Positions 4,271 to 31,941 of a stretch of 33,092 bases of DNA are shown here, in pieces (the first letter of the stretch is position 1; each line of letters opens with the position of its first letter). The DNA comes from Nitrospira sp. (GTDB taxonomy: Bacteria; Nitrospirota; Nitrospiria; Nitrospirales; Nitrospiraceae), in assembly GCA_016873395.1 (NCBI GenBank), contig VGXG01000025.1, positions 1 to 33,092 on the forward strand. Direction: 5' to 3'. The position numbers were made by a program, and so were the translations under genes. A model generated the notes under the pieces. That model ran no database searches, was not told where the DNA came from, and saw only the letters and a list, made by a program, of their open reading frames with translations.

Positions 4271-4358
4271 TGAGTGATGGGTGATAGGTAATGGGTGATG
4301 GGTAAGGAAAGGTCAAGGCTGCTTTGACGTATCACTCATCACCCTTCACGCTTCACGG
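4271..4358. repeat. heptamer inverted-repeat spacer element 1
   Basis: The left arm is made of 7-nt words of the GTGATGG type (with GTGATAG and GTAATGG variants). The right arm has the complementary 7-nt words ATCACTC, ATCACCC, TTCACGC and TTCACGG. The right arm runs into the adaptor gene and encodes its last residues (VKREG) and stop codon. It sits between the adaptor and pump genes and could fold into an imperfect hairpin in the operon mRNA. Confidence 0.75.
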
Positions 4359-15161: not shown

Positions 15162-15230
15162 GGCTAGGGGCGAGAGGCGAGAGGTAAAAGATCGGACCTT
15201 CCCCAAGCCACTAGCCACTAGCCCCGCGCC
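15162..15230. repeat. heptamer inverted-repeat spacer element 5
   Basis: Left-arm words AGGCTAG, GGGCGAG, AGGCGAG and AGGTAAA face AAGCCAC, TAGCCAC and TAGCCCC. It fills the spacer between cstA and yajQ, and the same vocabulary occurs in the elements at 27932 and inside murG at 31266. Confidence 0.72.
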
Positions 15231-15254
15231 CGTTAGGAATTGAAGGAGAGCAAT

Positions 15255-15761: not shown

Positions 15762-15789
15762 CGTGAAGCGTGAAGCGTGAAGCGTGAAG
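15762..15789 (+). repeat. four exact tandem copies of CGTGAAG
   Basis: The heptamer CGTGAAG is repeated four times without mismatch (15762-15768, 15769-15775, 15776-15782, 15783-15789). The GTG start of the following lipoprotein gene lies in the third copy, so the repeat provides the initiation codon. Unlike the other elements there is no complementary arm here. Confidence 0.85.
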
Positions 15790-18048: not shown

Positions 18049-19341
18049 ATGCCATTTATTTCCATAGAAGAAGTCGCCCGCCACGTCGGGCGGGAGGTGA
18101 CGATCCGGGGCTGGCTGCGACACCGCCGCAGCAGCGGCAAGATCCACTTCCTGGTGGTGCGGGACGGCACCGGCGATCTCCAGGCAGTCGTCAGCAAGGG
18201 TACGGTGGGGGAGGAACAGTTTGCCGAATCGGCCAAGCTGACCCAGGAGTCCTCCCTGATCCTGACCGGCAATCTGAAGGCCGACGCCCGTGCGCAGGGC
18301 GGCTACGAGTTGGAAGTCACGCGCATCCAACCGCTGCAGATCGCCGAGCCCTTTCCGATCCAGCCCAAGGAGCACAGCGTGGGGTTCCTCATGGAGCACC
18401 GCCACCTGTGGCTTCGCTCACACCGTCAGCATGCGGTGCTGCGGATCAGGCATGAGATCATCCGGGCCTGCCGCAACTTCTTCGATGAGCGCGGGTTCGT
18501 CCTGGTGGATGCGCCCATCTTCACGCCCAACGCTTGCGAAGGCACCACGACCCTGTTCCAGACGGACTACTTCGACGAGAAGGCCTACCTGACCCAAAGC
18601 GGCCAGCTTTACAGCGAGGCGACGGCCGCGGCCTTCGGGAAGGTCTACTGCTTCGGACCGACTTTTCGCGCGGAGAAGTCGAAGACGCGCCGGCATTTGA
18701 TGGAGTTCTGGATGGTGGAGCCGGAGGTGGCCTTCGCGGAGCTGCCCGACATGATGGATTTGGCCGAGGCCTTCCTCAGCTACATCGTGGAGCGGGTGCT
18801 GACCGCGCGCCGGGCCGAGCTGGCCGTGCTGGAGCGGGATGTCGCCAAGCTGGAGCGGGTGACCCCACCCTTCCCGCGCATCACCTATGAGGAGGCGGTG
18901 GCGCGGCTGCAGCAGAAGGGCAATCCGATGCAGTTCGGCGATGATTTCGGCGGCGATGAGGAGACCTTGCTGTCGAGCGAGTTTGACCGTCCGGTGATCG
19001 TGCATCGCTATCCGACTGCGATCAAGGCCTTCTACATGCAGAACGATCTCACTCGTCCGGATTTAGCGCTCTGCATGGATGTGCTGGCCCCTGAAGGCTA
19101 CGGCGAGATCATCGGCGGCGGGCAGCGCATCCACGAGCACGACAAGCTGCTGGCCCGGATTCGCGAGCACAAGCTGCCGGAAGAGGCCTTCCGTTGGTAC
19201 CTGGACCTGAGAAAGTTTGGGTCCGTCCCCCATGCCGGCTTCGGGATGGGCATCGAACGGGTGGTGGCTTGGATCTGCGGGCTGGAGCACGTGCGCGAGA
19301 CGATTCCGTTCCCACGGATGCTGTACAAGCTCTATCCGTAG
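18049..19341 (+). CDS. asnS: asparaginyl-tRNA synthetase
   Basis: The 430-residue class IIb synthetase has an OB-fold anticodon-binding domain at about residues 1-105 ([26 protein letters not shown]). The catalytic domain follows, with motif 2 [21 protein letters not shown] near 205 and motif 3 [20 protein letters not shown] near 400. Asn-type features are the segment [18 protein letters not shown] and the missing GAD insertion of bacterial AspRS. It loads asparagine onto tRNA-Asn in the cytoplasm. It is slightly shorter than the E. coli enzyme (466). The gene stands alone; a repeat element with a T run after it probably ends transcription. Confidence 0.93.
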
Positions 19342-19370
19342 TCGGATGCTATAAAAGCTTCATTTGTAGT

Positions 19371-19446
19371 AGTGACAAGTAACAAGTGAACAAGCTGACA
19401 AGGAGAACTTGTCAACTTGAAACTTGGCTGCTTGTCAGCTTTTTTC
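19371..19446 (+). repeat. inverted-repeat spacer element 7, terminator-like
   Basis: Words GTGACAA and GTAACAA lead into AAGCTGACAAG (19392-19402), which is exactly complementary to CTTGTCAGCTT (19431-19441). The right arm runs straight into TTTTT, so the element probably ends the asnS transcript. The outer word is the same as in element 2 at 7577. It abuts the remains of an IS1595-type transposase. Confidence 0.75.
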
Positions 19447-19775
19447 ACGCGATATCCCTGACTGGCAGGGTCGCGGCCGATGGATTCCCAACATCCAACA
19501 ATCCCAGTAAGTTTGCCAATTGAAGAACGCTTGGCCATCGCGTATCGTATCCGATGCGCCATGAACCACGCGCTCTTGTAGGTCTTGATCCCCAGCATCC
19601 GCTGAAGCTGGAGAGCACTGATCCCTTTCTTGGACGCGCACATGAGGTGAATGGCCGCTAGCCAGTACGTGAGCGGCACATGCGAGTCCTTAAAGATCGT
19701 TCCGACCGTTACCGAGAGCTGCCTCCGATACGCGCCACACTTCAGGGCGCGCCGTCCTGCGCTAGACACCTTCAA
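19447..19775 (-). pseudogene. decayed IS1595-family transposase
   Basis: The minus strand encodes a recognisable core, LSVTVGTIFKDSHVPLTYWLAAIHLMCASKKG, followed by QLQRMLGIKTYKSAWFMAHRIRYAMAK, typical of IS1595 transposases. The following KLTGIVGCWESIG corresponds to the family's GxVEVDETYIGG, but the first catalytic Asp is gone. In the N-terminal zinc ribbon the second Cys of CxxC is Tyr (KCGAYRRQ). The rest of the DDE domain is missing; the frame runs into the neighbouring repeat. It is not functional. It lies exactly where mraZ would be expected upstream of rsmH. No clear terminal inverted repeats were found. Confidence 0.8.
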
Positions 19776-23639: not shown

Positions 23640-25166
23640 ATGATGACCCTGGGTGAGTTGATCGCTCCGCTCTCCGTGCTGGAACAGCAGGGGAGGTTGG
23701 ACGTCGAAGTGACCGGCCTGACCGATGACTCGCGGGCGGTGCAGCCGGGCTGCCTGTTCGTGGCGGTCAAGGGAGGCAAGGCGGACGGCCATGCCTTCCT
23801 GCGACAGGCCGTGGCCGCCGGGGCTTCAGGGCTGGTCGTGCAAGAGCGGCCTGCGGCTTCGCTGGAGGCGGGGGCGGCGGGTTCCCCTGTGCCGATTGTC
23901 CGCGTCCAGGATTCGCGGCGCGCGTTGGGGCTGCTGGCCGGCCGGTTCCACGGGAACCCCTCTTCCCGGCTCAGCTTGATCGGGGTCACGGGGACGAACG
24001 GCAAGACCACGATTACCTACCTCTGCAAAGGGGTGCTCGAGGCGGCGGGGCGGAAGGTCGGCATCATCGGCACGGTGGCCTACCAGATCGGGGCGGAGCG
24101 TCTGGCCGCGTCACACACGACGCCGGGCGCCGTGGAGCTGCAGGCTCTCCTGGCCCGCATGGTGGAGGCAGGGCTGGACAGCGCGGTCATGGAGGTATCC
24201 TCGCACGCGCTCGCGCTGGACCGGGTCGTGGGCTGCGAGTTCGATGCGGCGATCTTTACGAACTTGACCCAGGACCACCTGGATTTTCATGCCGACCTGG
24301 AGGACTACTTCCAGGCCAAGTTGCGCCTCTTCACGGGCCTCACCCAGGGGCTCAAGTCCGGTTCCAAACGGGCGATCGTGAACGTGGATGATGAACGCGG
24401 CGAGCGCGTGTGCCGAGCCAGCCGGGTCCCGGTCTGGACCTACGCCGTGAAACGGGCGGCCGACCTGAAGGCCGAGGACGTGCGGCTTTCGCTGGCCGGC
24501 ACCGGGTTCACCGCCGTGACGCCGGCGGGACGGTTTCACGTGGACAGCCGCCTGGTAGGGGAACACAACGTCTACAACCTGCTGGCGGCGATCGGGGTGG
24601 GGCTCCACGAGGGCCTGTCTCCGGCCCAGATCCAGGCCGGCCTCGAGTCGGTCGTCAACGTTCCGGGCCGGTTCGAGCGGGTGGACGCGGGACAGGACTT
24701 TACCGTGGTGGTGGATTACGCCCACACGGAAGATGCGCTCGAGCGGCTCTTGACTGCCGCCCAGCAACTCAAGACCGGCCGCATCATCACGGTCTTCGGG
24801 TGCGGCGGAGACCGTGACCGGGGCAAGCGGCCCAGGATGGGGAGGGTCGCAGCGCGGTTATCCGACCTGGTCATCGCCACGTCGGACAATCCCCGCAGCG
24901 AGGATCCGCTGGCTATCCTGAGGGAAGTGGAGGCGGGGCTCCGGTCCGCCATCGAGGCCCAAGAGACGCAGGCTCGCTACGAGGTGATCGCGGACCGTCG
25001 CCTGGCCATCGAGGCGGCCATCCGCGCGGCTCGACCGGGCGACATGGTCCTGCTCGCGGGCAAGGGGCACGAGGACTACCAGATCATCGGCTCCCAGCGG
25101 GTGCACTTTGACGACCGCGAGGTGGCGAGAGCTGCCGTACAAAAAATAGTGATGAATGATGAGTGA
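23640..25166 (+). CDS. murE: UDP-MurNAc-L-Ala-D-Glu:meso-DAP ligase MurE
   Basis: The 508 residues show the three Mur-ligase domains. The N-terminal UDP-binding part has TGLTDDSRAVQPGCLFVAVKG. The ATPase domain begins with the P-loop GTNGKTTITYL near 120 and HTTPGAVELQ. The C-terminal domain carries the amino-acid signature DNPRSEDP near 420, which in this family selects meso-diaminopimelate. It adds the third residue of the stem peptide in the cytoplasm. The last codons (MNDE) and the stop come from the following heptamer element. Two adjacent ATGs (23640, 23643) are possible starts. Confidence 0.95.
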   Translation: MMTLGELIAPLSVLEQQGRLDVEVTGLTDDSRAVQPGCLFVAVKGGKADGHAFLRQAVAAGASGLVVQERPAASLEAGAAGSPVPIVRVQDSRRALGLLAGRFHGNPSSRLSLIGVTGTNGKTTITYLCKGVLEAAGRKVGIIGTVAYQIGAERLAASHTTPGAVELQALLARMVEAGLDSAVMEVSSHALALDRVVGCEFDAAIFTNLTQDHLDFHADLEDYFQAKLRLFTGLTQGLKSGSKRAIVNVDDERGERVCRASRVPVWTYAVKRAADLKAEDVRLSLAGTGFTAVTPAGRFHVDSRLVGEHNVYNLLAAIGVGLHEGLSPAQIQAGLESVVNVPGRFERVDAGQDFTVVVDYAHTEDALERLLTAAQQLKTGRIITVFGCGGDRDRGKRPRMGRVAARLSDLVIATSDNPRSEDPLAILREVEAGLRSAIEAQETQARYEVIADRRLAIEAAIRAARPGDMVLLAGKGHEDYQIIGSQRVHFDDREVARAAVQKIVMNDE

Positions 25167-25275
25167 TGAGTGATGAGTAACGGGTCAGGAAGCCTCACCC
25201 ATCACTGGGGACCCGTTGCTCCAAGATTGCAACGGGTGCCCCCCGTCACCCATTGCGGATCACTCATCACGGATT
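25151..25275. repeat. nested heptamer inverted-repeat element 10
   Basis: The left arm has GATGAAT then three GATGAGT words; the right arm has CCGTCAC, GGATCAC and TCATCAC. In the centre stands ACCCGTTGC (25211-25219) with its exact complement GCAACGGGT (25229-25237), flanked by GGGG and CCCC. The same inner pair is found in element 4 at 9635. The left arm encodes the end of MurE. Confidence 0.8.
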
Positions 25276-25283
25276 ACCGAGGG

Positions 25284-26723
25284 ATGCCGCTCTTTACCGT
25301 CGAAGAGGTGCTGGAGGTGACCGGCGCGCGCCTGGTGTCCGGCGAGGCTCCGCGTCCGCTGCGGGGCGGCGTCCGTCGGCTCTGCACCGATTCGCGCGCG
25401 GCGCGCCGAGGCGATCTTTTCATCGCGCTCAAGGGCGAGCGCTTCGACGGACACCGGTTTGTGGCGATGGCTCTCCGTCGTGGCGCGATGGGGGCGATCG
25501 TCCAGGATCAGGTGACCATCGGACCGCCTGCGGCGAGATCAAGCGGTCGGGTGCGCGGCCGGGGGCCGTCCGCTCCTCTGCTGTTGAGAGTGCCGGATAC
25601 GCTGGCGGCCTTTCAGCAACTGGCCTCCTATCACCGGAGCCGTTTCCAGATGCCGCTCGTGGCTGTGACCGGAAGCAACGGTAAGACCACGACCAAAGAA
25701 ATGGTGGCCCTTGTGCTGGCGGAGCGGGGAACGGTGCTCAAGACCGAGGGCAACCTCAACAACCGCATCGGAGTTCCCCAGACCCTGCTCCGACTGACCG
25801 CCCGGCATGAGGCGGCGGTGATCGAGATGGGAGTGGATCGTAAGGGACAGACCCGGCGGCTCTGCGAGATCGCCCGGCCGACCATCGGCGTGATCACGAA
25901 CATCGGGCCCGACCATCTGGAGTTCTTCGGCACCCTGGACGCCTCCGCGCAGGCCAAGGGAGAGTTGCTGGATCTGCTGCCGCCGGACGGCACAGCCGTG
26001 CTGAACGCGGACGATGCCTATTTTGACTATCTCGCCTCCGGGGCCCGCTGTCGGTTGGTCTCCTTCGGCCTCGCGCAGTCCGCGCAGGTGCGGGCCGTTG
26101 ATGTCGCGACCGGTCCGAACGGTGTGACCTTCCAACTCCTGCTGCCCGCGCAGACCCGCGGCACGCGCGTCCTGTTGCCGGCGCACGGCGCGCACAACCT
26201 GTCCAACGCCCTGGCTGCGGCCGCTGTCGGACAAGCGCTGGGCCTGAGCGGGGCGGCGATCGCGCGGGGGCTCGCCCGCTTCAAGCCGGCCGCGATGCGG
26301 TCGCAGGTGACGGTCCGAAAAGGGGTCCGGATCATCAACGATTGCTACAACGCCAATCCGGCTTCGATGAAGGCGGCCATTGCGCTCCTGGTCGATCTGG
26401 CCGCCGGGAGCAGGACGATCGCGGTTCTGGGAGACATGCTGGAGCTGGGCCCGGAGACGCACGCCCTGCACCGGGAAGTCGGGGCCTACCTGGCCGATCG
26501 GGGCATCTCCCGCCTGATCGCCTGCGGGGTCCTGGGCCGGAGTCTGGCAAAGGGCGCCCGGGCGGCGGGCCTGGCATCCGATCGAATTGAGGAAGCGGCG
26601 GACGCAGCAGCAGCCGCGAAGATCGTGAAGAAGCTCGTGCAGCCGGGCGATGTGGTCCTGGTCAAGGCCTCGCGGGGCATGAAAATGGAACAGGTCATCG
26701 AACAACTGAAGAATGATGAGTGA
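25284..26723 (+). CDS. murF: UDP-MurNAc-tripeptide:D-Ala-D-Ala ligase MurF
   Basis: The 479-residue protein has the MurF N-terminal domain (PLFTVEEVLEVTGARLVSGE, then VRRLCTDSRAARRGDLFIALKGERFDGH). The P-loop GSNGKTTTKEMVA is near residue 130, followed by NLNNRIGVPQTLL and EMGVDRKGQ typical for the family. NDCYNANPASMKAA is in the C-terminal domain. It adds D-Ala-D-Ala to complete the pentapeptide. The frame is open further upstream to 25170, but that part is repeat DNA; homology starts at 25284. Its C-terminus (LKNDE) and stop are formed by the next repeat element, as in murE. Confidence 0.94.
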   Translation: MPLFTVEEVLEVTGARLVSGEAPRPLRGGVRRLCTDSRAARRGDLFIALKGERFDGHRFVAMALRRGAMGAIVQDQVTIGPPAARSSGRVRGRGPSAPLLLRVPDTLAAFQQLASYHRSRFQMPLVAVTGSNGKTTTKEMVALVLAERGTVLKTEGNLNNRIGVPQTLLRLTARHEAAVIEMGVDRKGQTRRLCEIARPTIGVITNIGPDHLEFFGTLDASAQAKGELLDLLPPDGTAVLNADDAYFDYLASGARCRLVSFGLAQSAQVRAVDVATGPNGVTFQLLLPAQTRGTRVLLPAHGAHNLSNALAAAAVGQALGLSGAAIARGLARFKPAAMRSQVTVRKGVRIINDCYNANPASMKAAIALLVDLAAGSRTIAVLGDMLELGPETHALHREVGAYLADRGISRLIACGVLGRSLAKGARAAGLASDRIEEAADAAAAAKIVKKLVQPGDVVLVKASRGMKMEQVIEQLKNDE

Positions 26724-26827
26724 TGAATGCTGAAAAGTGAACAGTTCTCAGTTTACAGTTCTCAGTTTCGGAATTGTCAGGAACTGAAAACTGATCACTG
26801 ATGACTGACAACTCAAATTCAGCATTC
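26711..26827. repeat. heptamer inverted-repeat spacer element 11
   Basis: It opens with GATGAGT-type words that close murF, then GAATGCTGAA (26725-26734), exactly complementary to TTCAGCATTC (26818-26827). Inside, words ACAGTTC and TCAGTTT (two copies each) face GGAACTG, AAAACTG, ATCACTG and ATGACTG. It separates murF and mraY. Confidence 0.8.
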
Positions 26828-29452: not shown

Positions 29453-29458
29453 CGAACG

Positions 29459-29547
29459 TGACGGGTGACGAGTGACGAGTGATGAAGTCGAAGAAATGTG
29501 GGGTGAATCAGTTGTCCCCTGTCACGCGTCACGCGTCACTTGTCACT
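29459..29547. repeat. heptamer inverted-repeat spacer element 13
   Basis: A very regular copy: GTGACGG, GTGACGA (twice) and GTGATGA face GTCACGC (twice), GTCACTT and GTCACTG. It fills the murD-ftsW spacer and ends just before the ftsW ribosome-binding site. Confidence 0.85.
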
Positions 29548-29566: not shown

Positions 29567-30757
29567 ATGTCACGCAGGGGTGGTCTCCAAGCCGGCACCT
29601 TAGCGCTTCCCTGGCCGATGGGCGGTGCGTCGGCGAAGGGGGGTGCGGCGGCCGACCGGAGCGTATTGGCGGTGACGGTGGTCCTGGCCTTGGTCGGGCT
29701 CGTGATGGTGTTCAGCGCCAGCGCGGTCGTGGCCGGGAACCGATATCACGACTCGATTTATTTTCTCAAACGTCACCTGGTCTGGCTGGCCTTCGGGTTT
29801 CTGTTGCTCCAGGCCAGCTCTCGTCTCGACTACACGGTCTGGCGGAAGCTGGCCCTGCCGATCCTGGCAGTGACGTGCCTGTTGCTGGTGCTGGTCCTGA
29901 TTCCGTCCTTGGGCGTCGTGGCCAAGGGAGCCAGGCGCTGGCTCAGGTTGGGGCCCATCTCCGTGCAGCCGGCCGAGATGGTCAAGCTGGTCGTCGTGCT
30001 GTATCTGGCCGGCTATCTCACCAGGAAGGAGGGGCGCATCACGGAATTCGCGCGGGGCTTCCTCCCGCCCCTGCTGGTCGTCGGCCTGCTGGCCGGGCTG
30101 GTGCTGCTGCAGCCGGACCTGGGGACGGTGGTGGTGATCGGCCTCGTGACGCTCGGCTTGCTGTTCCTGGCCGGGGCCCGGCTCGTTCATTTGTTCGGGT
30201 TGGTGCCGTTTGTCTTGCCGGCGGCGGCGGTGCTGATCTGGAAGTCCCCGTACCGTCTGCAGAGGCTCATGACGTTCCTGGATCCCATGAAGGATCCGAC
30301 GGGGGCCGGCTTCCAGGTGAACCAGTCGTTTCTCGCCTTCGGGAGCGGGGGACTCTTCGGCGTCGGGTTGGGCGAGGGGGAGCAGAAGCTGTTTTTCCTG
30401 CCGGAGGCCCACACGGATTTTGTGCTGGCTCTGGCAGGGGAGGAGCTGGGGCTCGTGGGCACCGGCGCGATCATGCTGTGCTATGCGGCCCTGGTGCTGA
30501 AGGGCTTTCAGATCGCGGCAAGGGCGCGCGAGCCCTTCGGCCGCCACTTGGCTCTGGGCATCACCCTGCTCATCGGGCTCCAGGCGCTCATCAACGCCGG
30601 CGTGGTCACCGGCATGTTGCCGACCAAGGGGTTGACGCTGCCGCTGGTCAGCTATGGGGGCTCCTCCTTGATGGTCAATCTATTAGCGATCGGGATCCTC
30701 CTGAGCGTGTCACGGGACCGGCAAGGGGGGCAGGGCGGTGGAATCGGCGGGCGATGA
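29567..30757 (+). CDS. ftsW: septal peptidoglycan glycosyltransferase FtsW
   Basis: A SEDS-family protein of 396 residues with about ten transmembrane helices. Family marks are VMVFSASAVVA in TM1, GARRWLRLGPISVQPAEMVKL near 125, LLQPDLGTVVV near 183 and GLGEGEQKLFFLPEAHTDFVLALAGEELG near 270. The closing LPLVSYGGSSL lies near 357. It polymerises lipid II at the septum with FtsI as partner. GGGAGAGCGG stands before the ATG at 29567. Its stop overlaps the murG start (ATGA). The N-terminal 30 residues are Gly/Ala-rich and cytoplasmic. Confidence 0.95.
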   Translation: MSRRGGLQAGTLALPWPMGGASAKGGAAADRSVLAVTVVLALVGLVMVFSASAVVAGNRYHDSIYFLKRHLVWLAFGFLLLQASSRLDYTVWRKLALPILAVTCLLLVLVLIPSLGVVAKGARRWLRLGPISVQPAEMVKLVVVLYLAGYLTRKEGRITEFARGFLPPLLVVGLLAGLVLLQPDLGTVVVIGLVTLGLLFLAGARLVHLFGLVPFVLPAAAVLIWKSPYRLQRLMTFLDPMKDPTGAGFQVNQSFLAFGSGGLFGVGLGEGEQKLFFLPEAHTDFVLALAGEELGLVGTGAIMLCYAALVLKGFQIAARAREPFGRHLALGITLLIGLQALINAGVVTGMLPTKGLTLPLVSYGGSSLMVNLLAIGILLSVSRDRQGGQGGGIGGR

Positions 30758-31941
30758 ACATCGTGATCGCGGCCGGAGGGACCGGCGGGCACCTCTATCC
30801 GGCGGTGGCGCTGGCGAGGGAGTTTCTCCGGCAGGTGCCGCATTGCTCGATTCTGTTCGTGGGCACGGAGCGGGGGATCGAGGGCAAGGTGCTTCCGCAC
30901 GAAGGGTTCGAGTGGGAAAAGATCGCGGCCAAGCCGGTCATGGGGCGAGGGGTGCGGCAAGCCCTCAAAGCCTTTGCGTCGTTGCCGGTGGCGTGCTGGC
31001 AATCGGTGCGGCTTTTGCGAAAGCGGCGCGCCGACCTGGTTATCGGCATCGGCGGCTATACCAGCCCGCCCGTGCTGGCGGCGGGATTTCTGCTGAGAAT
31101 CCCACGCGTGATTCTGGAGCCGAATGCCTATCCGGGCATGGCCAACAAGGCGCTGGGGCCTCTCGCCGATCGGGTGTTTCTGGGTTACGAAGCGGCCAAG
31201 CCGTATTTTCGTGCCAGCAAGGTCCGGGTCGTGGGGACCCCCGTCAGGCGGGCGTTTTTGGAAACAGGCGAGAGGCAAGAGGCGAGAGGCAAGGGGCAAG
31301 CTGAAAGCCAAGAATTTCGACCTCTCACCTCTAGCCCCTCGCCTCTAGCCCCTCGCCAGACATTGCTGGTGTTCGGTGGAAGCCAGGGGGCCCATGCGAT
31401 CAATCAGGCGATGGTAGAGGCCTTGTCGCTCTTGCAATCGATGCCGACCGGCCTCTCGGTGATTCATCAGACTGGAGAGGCGGACTATGTCTCCGTCAAG
31501 AAGGCTTATGAGAGAGCCGGGTTGGGAACGGATCGGGTGGAGGTGGTGCCCTTCTTGTTCGATATGCCGCGAGCCTTGAAGCAAGCGGATCTGGTCGTCT
31601 CCCGCTCCGGGGCCGTGACCCTGGCGGAGCTGACGGCTTGCGGGAAGCCGGCGATTCTGATTCCGCTTCCACAGGCTATCTATCAGCACCAGGAACGCAA
31701 CGCCCGGGTGCTGGAGGAAGCGGGTGCGGCGATGGTGCTGCTCCAGCATGGCCTCACGGGATCAAAACTGGCGCAGACGATCGATTCGTTATTGGACTCC
31801 GCGGATCGCTTGCGGGTGATGGGCGAGCGGAGCGCGGCAATGGGCAAGACCGACTCGGCGGAAGTCATCGTCAGGGACTGTCTTGCGCTCGTGGGAGGTG
31901 GCCATGACAACAAGTTCGGTGCTGGAGCCGCGAGGTCGTGA
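30754..31941 (+). CDS. murG: lipid II-forming N-acetylglucosaminyltransferase MurG with a repeat-derived linker
   Basis: A GT28 enzyme of 395 residues, about 40 longer than E. coli MurG (355). The N-terminal Rossmann domain has the G-loop [16 protein letters not shown] and [13 protein letters not shown], and the second domain begins [46 protein letters not shown] and QHQERNA follow. It adds GlcNAc to lipid I on the inner membrane face. Residues about 171-201 in the linker between the domains are encoded by a heptamer inverted repeat and are rich in Glu, Arg, Gln, Ser and Pro. The frame stays open there, so the enzyme is probably active with an enlarged linker. Start overlaps the ftsW stop. 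Confidence 0.94.
31266..31357. repeat. heptamer inverted-repeat element 14 inside murG
   Basis: Words AGGCGAG and AGGCAAG alternate twice, then GGGCAAG. The right arm has CCTCTCA, CCTCTAG, CCCCTCG, CCTCTAG and CCCCTCG. It is the same vocabulary as the spacer elements at 15162 and 27932, but here it is translated as part of MurG. Confidence 0.88.

Follow-up and report, generated by a model that had tools for sequence, protein, structure and literature searches.

The murG gene of the genome analysed here, which its relatives place in the Nitrospiraceae, contains a complete hairpin of degenerate heptamers that is read in frame between the two domains of the encoded enzyme. We consider it likely that this insert is tolerated repeat DNA in a permissive linker, and that it represents one copy of a dense class of heptamer hairpins with rapid turnover. 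The gene and the parts of its element lie as follows in the window, by which we mean the whole stretch of 33,092 nucleotides that was analysed:

30754–31941, plus strand: murG, 395 aa, intact and the sole full match in the genome (single-copy).
31266–31357, plus strand: complete MurG heptamer hairpin, 92 bp, in frame in murG.
31266–31308, plus strand: left arm of the element (AGGCGAG, AGGCAAG, AGGCGAG, AGGCAAG, GGGCAAG and trailing bases), translating to 15 residues.
31309–31319, plus strand: loop of the element (caagaatttcg), non-homologous to those of the elements that match best elsewhere in the genome.
31320–31357, plus strand: right arm of the element, complementary heptamers (CTCACCTCTAGCCCCTCGCC...), translating to 13 residues.
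31264–31353, plus strand: codons 171–200 of murG, predicted to be disordered, between strands 157–159 and 202–207.

The left arm is built from GGCNAGN words, variable at positions 4 and 7, and the right arm from their complement, its array terminating in CTCGCCTCTAGCCCCTCGCC. TRF reported arrays of period 7 or 14 at 31266–31300 and 31324–31357, and over 30 nt (31267–31296 against 31328–31357) the arms show 83% complementarity. Folding of the DNA strand yielded −24.4 kcal/mol compared with −15.4 ± 2.6 for shuffled sequences (z = −3.5; 0/200 as good), and when the codons of the linker were shuffled neither the period score nor the hairpin score was reached (0/200 each). An Rfam search of the window gave no match to a known RNA family. 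Two of the three sense frames through the element are interrupted by stops, and the open one is the frame in use; as 92 is indivisible by three, however, a clean insertion is not demonstrated. Pfam assigns residues 3–142 to the GT28 N-terminal domain and residues 203–370 to the GT28 C-terminal domain, and the AlphaFold2 model of MurG has a mean pLDDT of 88.6 with values of about 50 over residues 171–200 (block means 53, 48 and 55). These residues are predicted to form a disordered linker joining two confident domains, which fits tolerance of an insert and agrees with the inter-domain position given in the initial annotation.

Period-7 arrays are abundant throughout the genome and concentrated between genes. 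Within 1.19 Mb, about half the genome taken in stretches from a fragmented assembly (97 contigs) and with genes called by a simple codon-usage script rather than a published caller, 223 such arrays lay in spacers, a density of 118 per 100 kb, and a further 34 overlapped coding sequence (3.4 per 100 kb). A first-order Markov control of 433 kb of the genome contained none compared with 79 in the real sequence, and period 7 and its multiple 14 stand far above all others, periods 5, 6 and 8–13 being rare. Many of the arrays pair as hairpins of 60–120 bp, drawn from word families such as GGCNAGN (30 hairpins), GTGANNN/TCACNNN and CAGTNNT. The MurG element is of the same class as these spacer arrays, in keeping with the earlier observation that a full spacer-type element had become part of the murG frame. 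Chance and low complexity as a source of the arrays are excluded by the Markov and codon-shuffle controls. We likewise give almost no credence to ordinary linker drift or an assembly error having produced low-complexity coding sequence that is merely heptamer-like. The fragmentation of the assembly and the variation of linker length where repeats are absent are in line with such an origin, but neither control generated arrays of this kind, both arms match words from the genome's own spacers, and orthologues in independent assemblies carry similar hairpins.

Further arrays in the window, none of them assigned to a strand, are as follows:

4271–4357: hairpin in a spacer, made of GTGATGG/CATCACC heptamers, with the right arm entering the 3' end of the adjoining efflux-adaptor-like gene.
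15162–15231: spacer hairpin of the GGCNAGN family, as in MurG.
15762–15789: perfect heptamer array in a spacer (CGTGAAG, four times).
25150–25185: GTGATGA array over the end of a murE-like gene, whose stop codon lies within the array.
26707–26813: GTGATGA array fused in register with a CAGTNNT hairpin (one of 13 conserved-loop copies).
29458–29547: spacer hairpin of GTGACGA/TCACGCG heptamers between murD-like and ftsW-like genes.

Arrays lying over the 3' ends of genes provide the last codons and the stop in the window (4331–4357, 25150–25178) and at two other loci (L146:2638–2669, L147:478–522). Word families may also be joined in a single array with the 7-bp register kept (window 26707–26767; L130:4165–4240). 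An open frame on the minus strand at 19332–19775, which we take to resemble a remnant of an IS1595-type transposase, is accompanied by imperfect repeats at 19315–19441.

Two observations would suit a ready-made mobile unit, MITE- or REP-like and copied from another site in the genome by a transposase acting in trans. Firstly, 61 other sequences in the genome match the MurG element, the closest with 77% identity over 85 bp. Secondly, the CAGTNNT hairpins are a dispersed repeat family that has spread as a unit, with 13 copies in the 1.19 Mb in which both the loop (TTCCGGACAATTCCGAA) and the outer flanks are conserved (for instance window 26752–26818, L132:6009–6075, L138:15988–16054 and L169:11666–11732). 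For the MurG element itself we nevertheless judge such an origin unlikely. The elements most like it have arms in common but not loops; loops compared among its best matches and among all 30 GGCNAGN hairpins were unrelated, and the GGCNAGN family was rejected as copies of one conserved unit on this ground. The sole match to a Y1 transposase is a single truncated copy among unrelated repeats, and a target-site duplication is not demonstrated, the boundaries being fuzzy and the relatives too divergent to read one. The truncated Y1_Tnp frame, which is RAYT-like (L150:5905–6189, contig C57), is flanked by GGGGACATTCTACTTTT repeats with no heptamers beside it; as no intact transposase is linked to the arrays, RAYT-driven REP spread was also rejected. 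Across the 30 GGCNAGN hairpins (loci L129–L199 of this genome) the two arms agree at position 4 less often than expected by chance (0.19 vs 0.32, P 0.002), as though perfect pairing of the stem were avoided. An origin of one arm by inverted duplication of the other was discarded because arms that agree less than chance at the variable positions are not recent copies of each other. The initial annotation had held that the elements move or arise in genes: their occurrence inside genes stands, whereas moving and arising are inseparable here, since the arms are common and the loops are not, and yet the CAGTNNT copies keep theirs.

A comparison of MurG linkers, measured from G[TM]P[VI]R to GGSQG, revealed 41 aa in this genome and mostly 19–25 aa in relatives and more distant bacteria. 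The nearest relatives without an array have linkers of 22, 24 and 27 aa, which corresponds to a net gain of about 14–19 residues rather than the roughly 30 first estimated. Among full MurGs the closest in sequence are those of G025 and G035 (72–73% identical), which have linkers of 27 and 22 aa without heptamers, and heptamers were found in none of the linkers read from true Nitrospira. Relatives do not, therefore, share one heptamer-free linker of uniform length, the finding that would have spoken against an insert: lengths differ, and several linkers lack heptamers. Linkers of 31–34 aa without heptamers (L005, L007, L013, L033) indicate that linkers also grow independently of heptamers, so that length alone is no marker. 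It had further been expected that some relatives would lack residues 171–201 precisely. The divergent linkers give no clean empty-site alignment, and a close strain pair with clean empty and filled murG sites was not found, the linkers of the nearest relatives being unalignable base by base at this level of identity; the insertion itself is thus something that we infer.

Besides the array described here, different hairpins, of heptamers or octamers, occupy the same MurG linker in six further lineages, the full set of array-bearing linkers being those of G000, G007, G030 with L055 and L058, G019, G011, G002 and G023. In G007, which belongs to the same genus as G025 and G035, four GGCGAGG words pair with words of the TCACGCT type; the linkers of G030, L055 and L058 contain words of the GGCAGAA type, that of G019 an octamer hairpin (GACGCGGG), and those of G011, G002 and G023 other hairpin words. 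On a MurG tree calculated with the linker cut out, the presence of an array changed at least five times (bootstrap 5–6), four of these changes being forced by starred branches, counts that do not separate gain from loss. G007, which carries an array, is sister to G025, which does not (93% identity), and the octamer carrier G019 is nested among heptamer carriers. The flanks of the G007 linker are closer to those of G000 than to those of its sister G025, a likeness between sequences that suggests a shared or recombined element and not two gains.

A different origin, growth in place, would have a native GGCGAGGGG (codons for GEG) at the site expanded through slippage during replication and template switching at the hairpin. 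Consistent with this, G035 has GGCGAGGGGGCG at the same codons in the absence of an element, GGCGAGGGG also occurs in G002, and the four GGCGAGG words of G007 start at the same codons; moreover, elements have no loops in common, and words and periods vary by lineage. The GGCGAGGGG of G035, however, may be a remnant as well as a seed, and that of G002 may likewise be the remnant of a lost element. Furthermore, the GGCNAGN grammar recurs at 30 unrelated loci, whereas random local seeds would yield many grammars, and at their variable positions neighbouring words show hardly more similarity than pairs drawn at random. Growth from a local seed is therefore an explanation about which we are doubtful.

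The repeat period itself is lineage-specific. In samples from G019 (L290–L294) and G004 (L300–L304), octamer (GACGCGG, AAAGTCNN) and nonamer (GTTNNNNCN) hairpins replace heptamers: the sampled DNA of G019 holds octamer arrays of the GACGCGG kind, as does its MurG linker, and that of G004 holds both octamers and nonamers. No arrays were found in 100 kb sampled from true Nitrospira (G001). These period samples from relatives are small, at 30–100 kb each.

MurG is not the only protein affected. In the half of the genome sampled, at least 12 other genes contain in-frame arrays located at least 36 bp from either end. They encode XerC, MutS (in its C-terminal region), CobQ, two paralogues of NuoG, a NuoM-like protein, an AddA-like helicase-nuclease, an ACT-domain protein, an NMT1-type binding protein, a radical SAM protein and a PMT-family transferase, among others. 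The arrays mostly occupy linkers or positions close to a terminus, on strands free of stops, and complete in-frame hairpins were found in the genes for MurG and the PMT-family transferase. CobQ is the cleanest case, with linkers of 37 aa in G000 and 34 aa in G011, built from different words, and of 27–28 aa without an insert in the other 23 orthologues. Words also differ between genera in the XerC and PMT linkers, and two NuoG-like paralogues that are 41% identical carry arrays of different words at the same point (L161:8705–8734, L198:9420–9447).

The initial annotation had also stressed that the element kept the frame of an essential gene. The frame in use is indeed open, but this needs no special property of the element, as a filter against stops and frameshifts suffices. 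Heptamers of the GTGA strand place a TGA in frame every 21 bases, and among spacer arrays 23% of frames are open on the purine-rich strand and 80% on the pyrimidine-rich strand. Arrays inside genes are read on the pyrimidine-rich strand or consist of TGA-free GGCNAG or GCGCGAG words, and the sole in-gene array in GTGA sense, in the NuoM-like gene, has TTA at the position of the expected in-frame TGA. Frame conservation is thus what the filter leaves.

Retention of the linker heptamers for a function, either as a longer tether or partner-binding segment of MurG or as a DNA or RNA hairpin (for example one causing translational pausing between domains), appears very unlikely to us. The same linker is hit in several genera, and in the genus-20 clade the insert is of constant length over three species with pN of 0.03–0.075 against 0.04–0.08 in the flanks, values based on few sites; strict neutrality is for this reason not demonstrated. 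Sequence, length, words and period nevertheless all vary between genera, close relatives and true Nitrospira do without an array, the linker is predicted to be disordered, and equivalent inserts occur in many unrelated proteins.

Taken as tolerated repeat DNA, the MurG insert would be explained by degenerate heptamer hairpins that populate this Nitrospiraceae genome chiefly between genes and also appear in or near them. Genic copies would persist only where they leave an open frame and a harmless peptide, which restricts them to disordered linkers between domains, loops on the surface and the termini. The copy between the N-terminal and C-terminal Rossmann domains of MurG would be translated into a linker of low complexity, probably without a role in the enzyme. 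We posit that this linker is a site of turnover, where hairpins differing in words and period have been gained, lost or exchanged several times in the family, and that new copies would come in through insertion, or through repeat growth driven by a template, and not by gradual ordinary drift.

Short palindromic repeats that lie in spacers and, in frame, in conserved genes without breaking them are established for Rickettsia and Wolbachia (PMC2229807, PMC3767692). Orthologues can share the position of such a Rickettsia palindromic element (RPE), and the product of a gmk gene carrying an RPE is made and has enzymatic activity (PMC2229807, PMC3767692). The arrays described here resemble RPEs as palindromic repeats in frame in conserved genes (MurG and the PMT-family gene), and MurG-type hairpins may work like them, although we do not claim membership. 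RPEs form families of 100–150 bp with family-wide sequence, whereas MurG-type elements combine degenerate heptamer arms with unrelated loops; the hosts are Rickettsiales in one case and Nitrospirota in the other, and words and period are here lineage-dependent, a distinction drawn from descriptions of RPEs, not their sequences. Abundant intergenic heptamers without explanation are equally well established: the authors of the SPADE survey rank tandem heptamers first in abundance among intergenic repeats across many prokaryotes, without a clue to their function (PMC6344855), and TAACTGA arrays of Beggiatoaceae and Cyanobacteria are mostly intergenic, with a few within small hypothetical ORFs (PMC4679880). 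Our arrays share the dominant 7-bp period and the preference for spacers. Their units, however, are degenerate at fixed positions and often hairpin-paired rather than near-identical and direct, and, unlike TAACTGA-type arrays, several lie within conserved genes including murG. REP/RAYT systems and MITEs are likewise small, palindromic and mostly intergenic, but the present arrays have neither the conserved tetranucleotide head and linked intact RAYT of the former nor a shared core or internal sequence as in the latter, their arms being inverted repeats with fuzzy boundaries. Among the open-access papers searched, none described degenerate heptamer hairpins within Nitrospirota core genes.

The present findings take in-frame palindromic repeats beyond the Rickettsiales, into a lineage that is free-living and a repeat grammar of another kind. 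As known from Rickettsia, repeat DNA appears to come and go inside working genes, and the linkers of MurG, XerC, CobQ, PMT and NuoG over about 20 genera offer a natural series for the birth, exchange and loss of repeats in essential genes. Copies in orthologous coding linkers provide fixed anchors by which heptamer turnover can be dated and given a direction, which spacers do not offer. As a tentative proposal, in which we place less than even confidence, an undescribed process in the Nitrospiraceae may write hairpins of 7-, 8- or 9-bp words, with both period and words set by the lineage, and repeatedly overwrite the permissive linkers of these core proteins. If so, such a process would place unrelated hairpins in orthologous and even paralogous linkers, and would frequently supply new disordered linkers.
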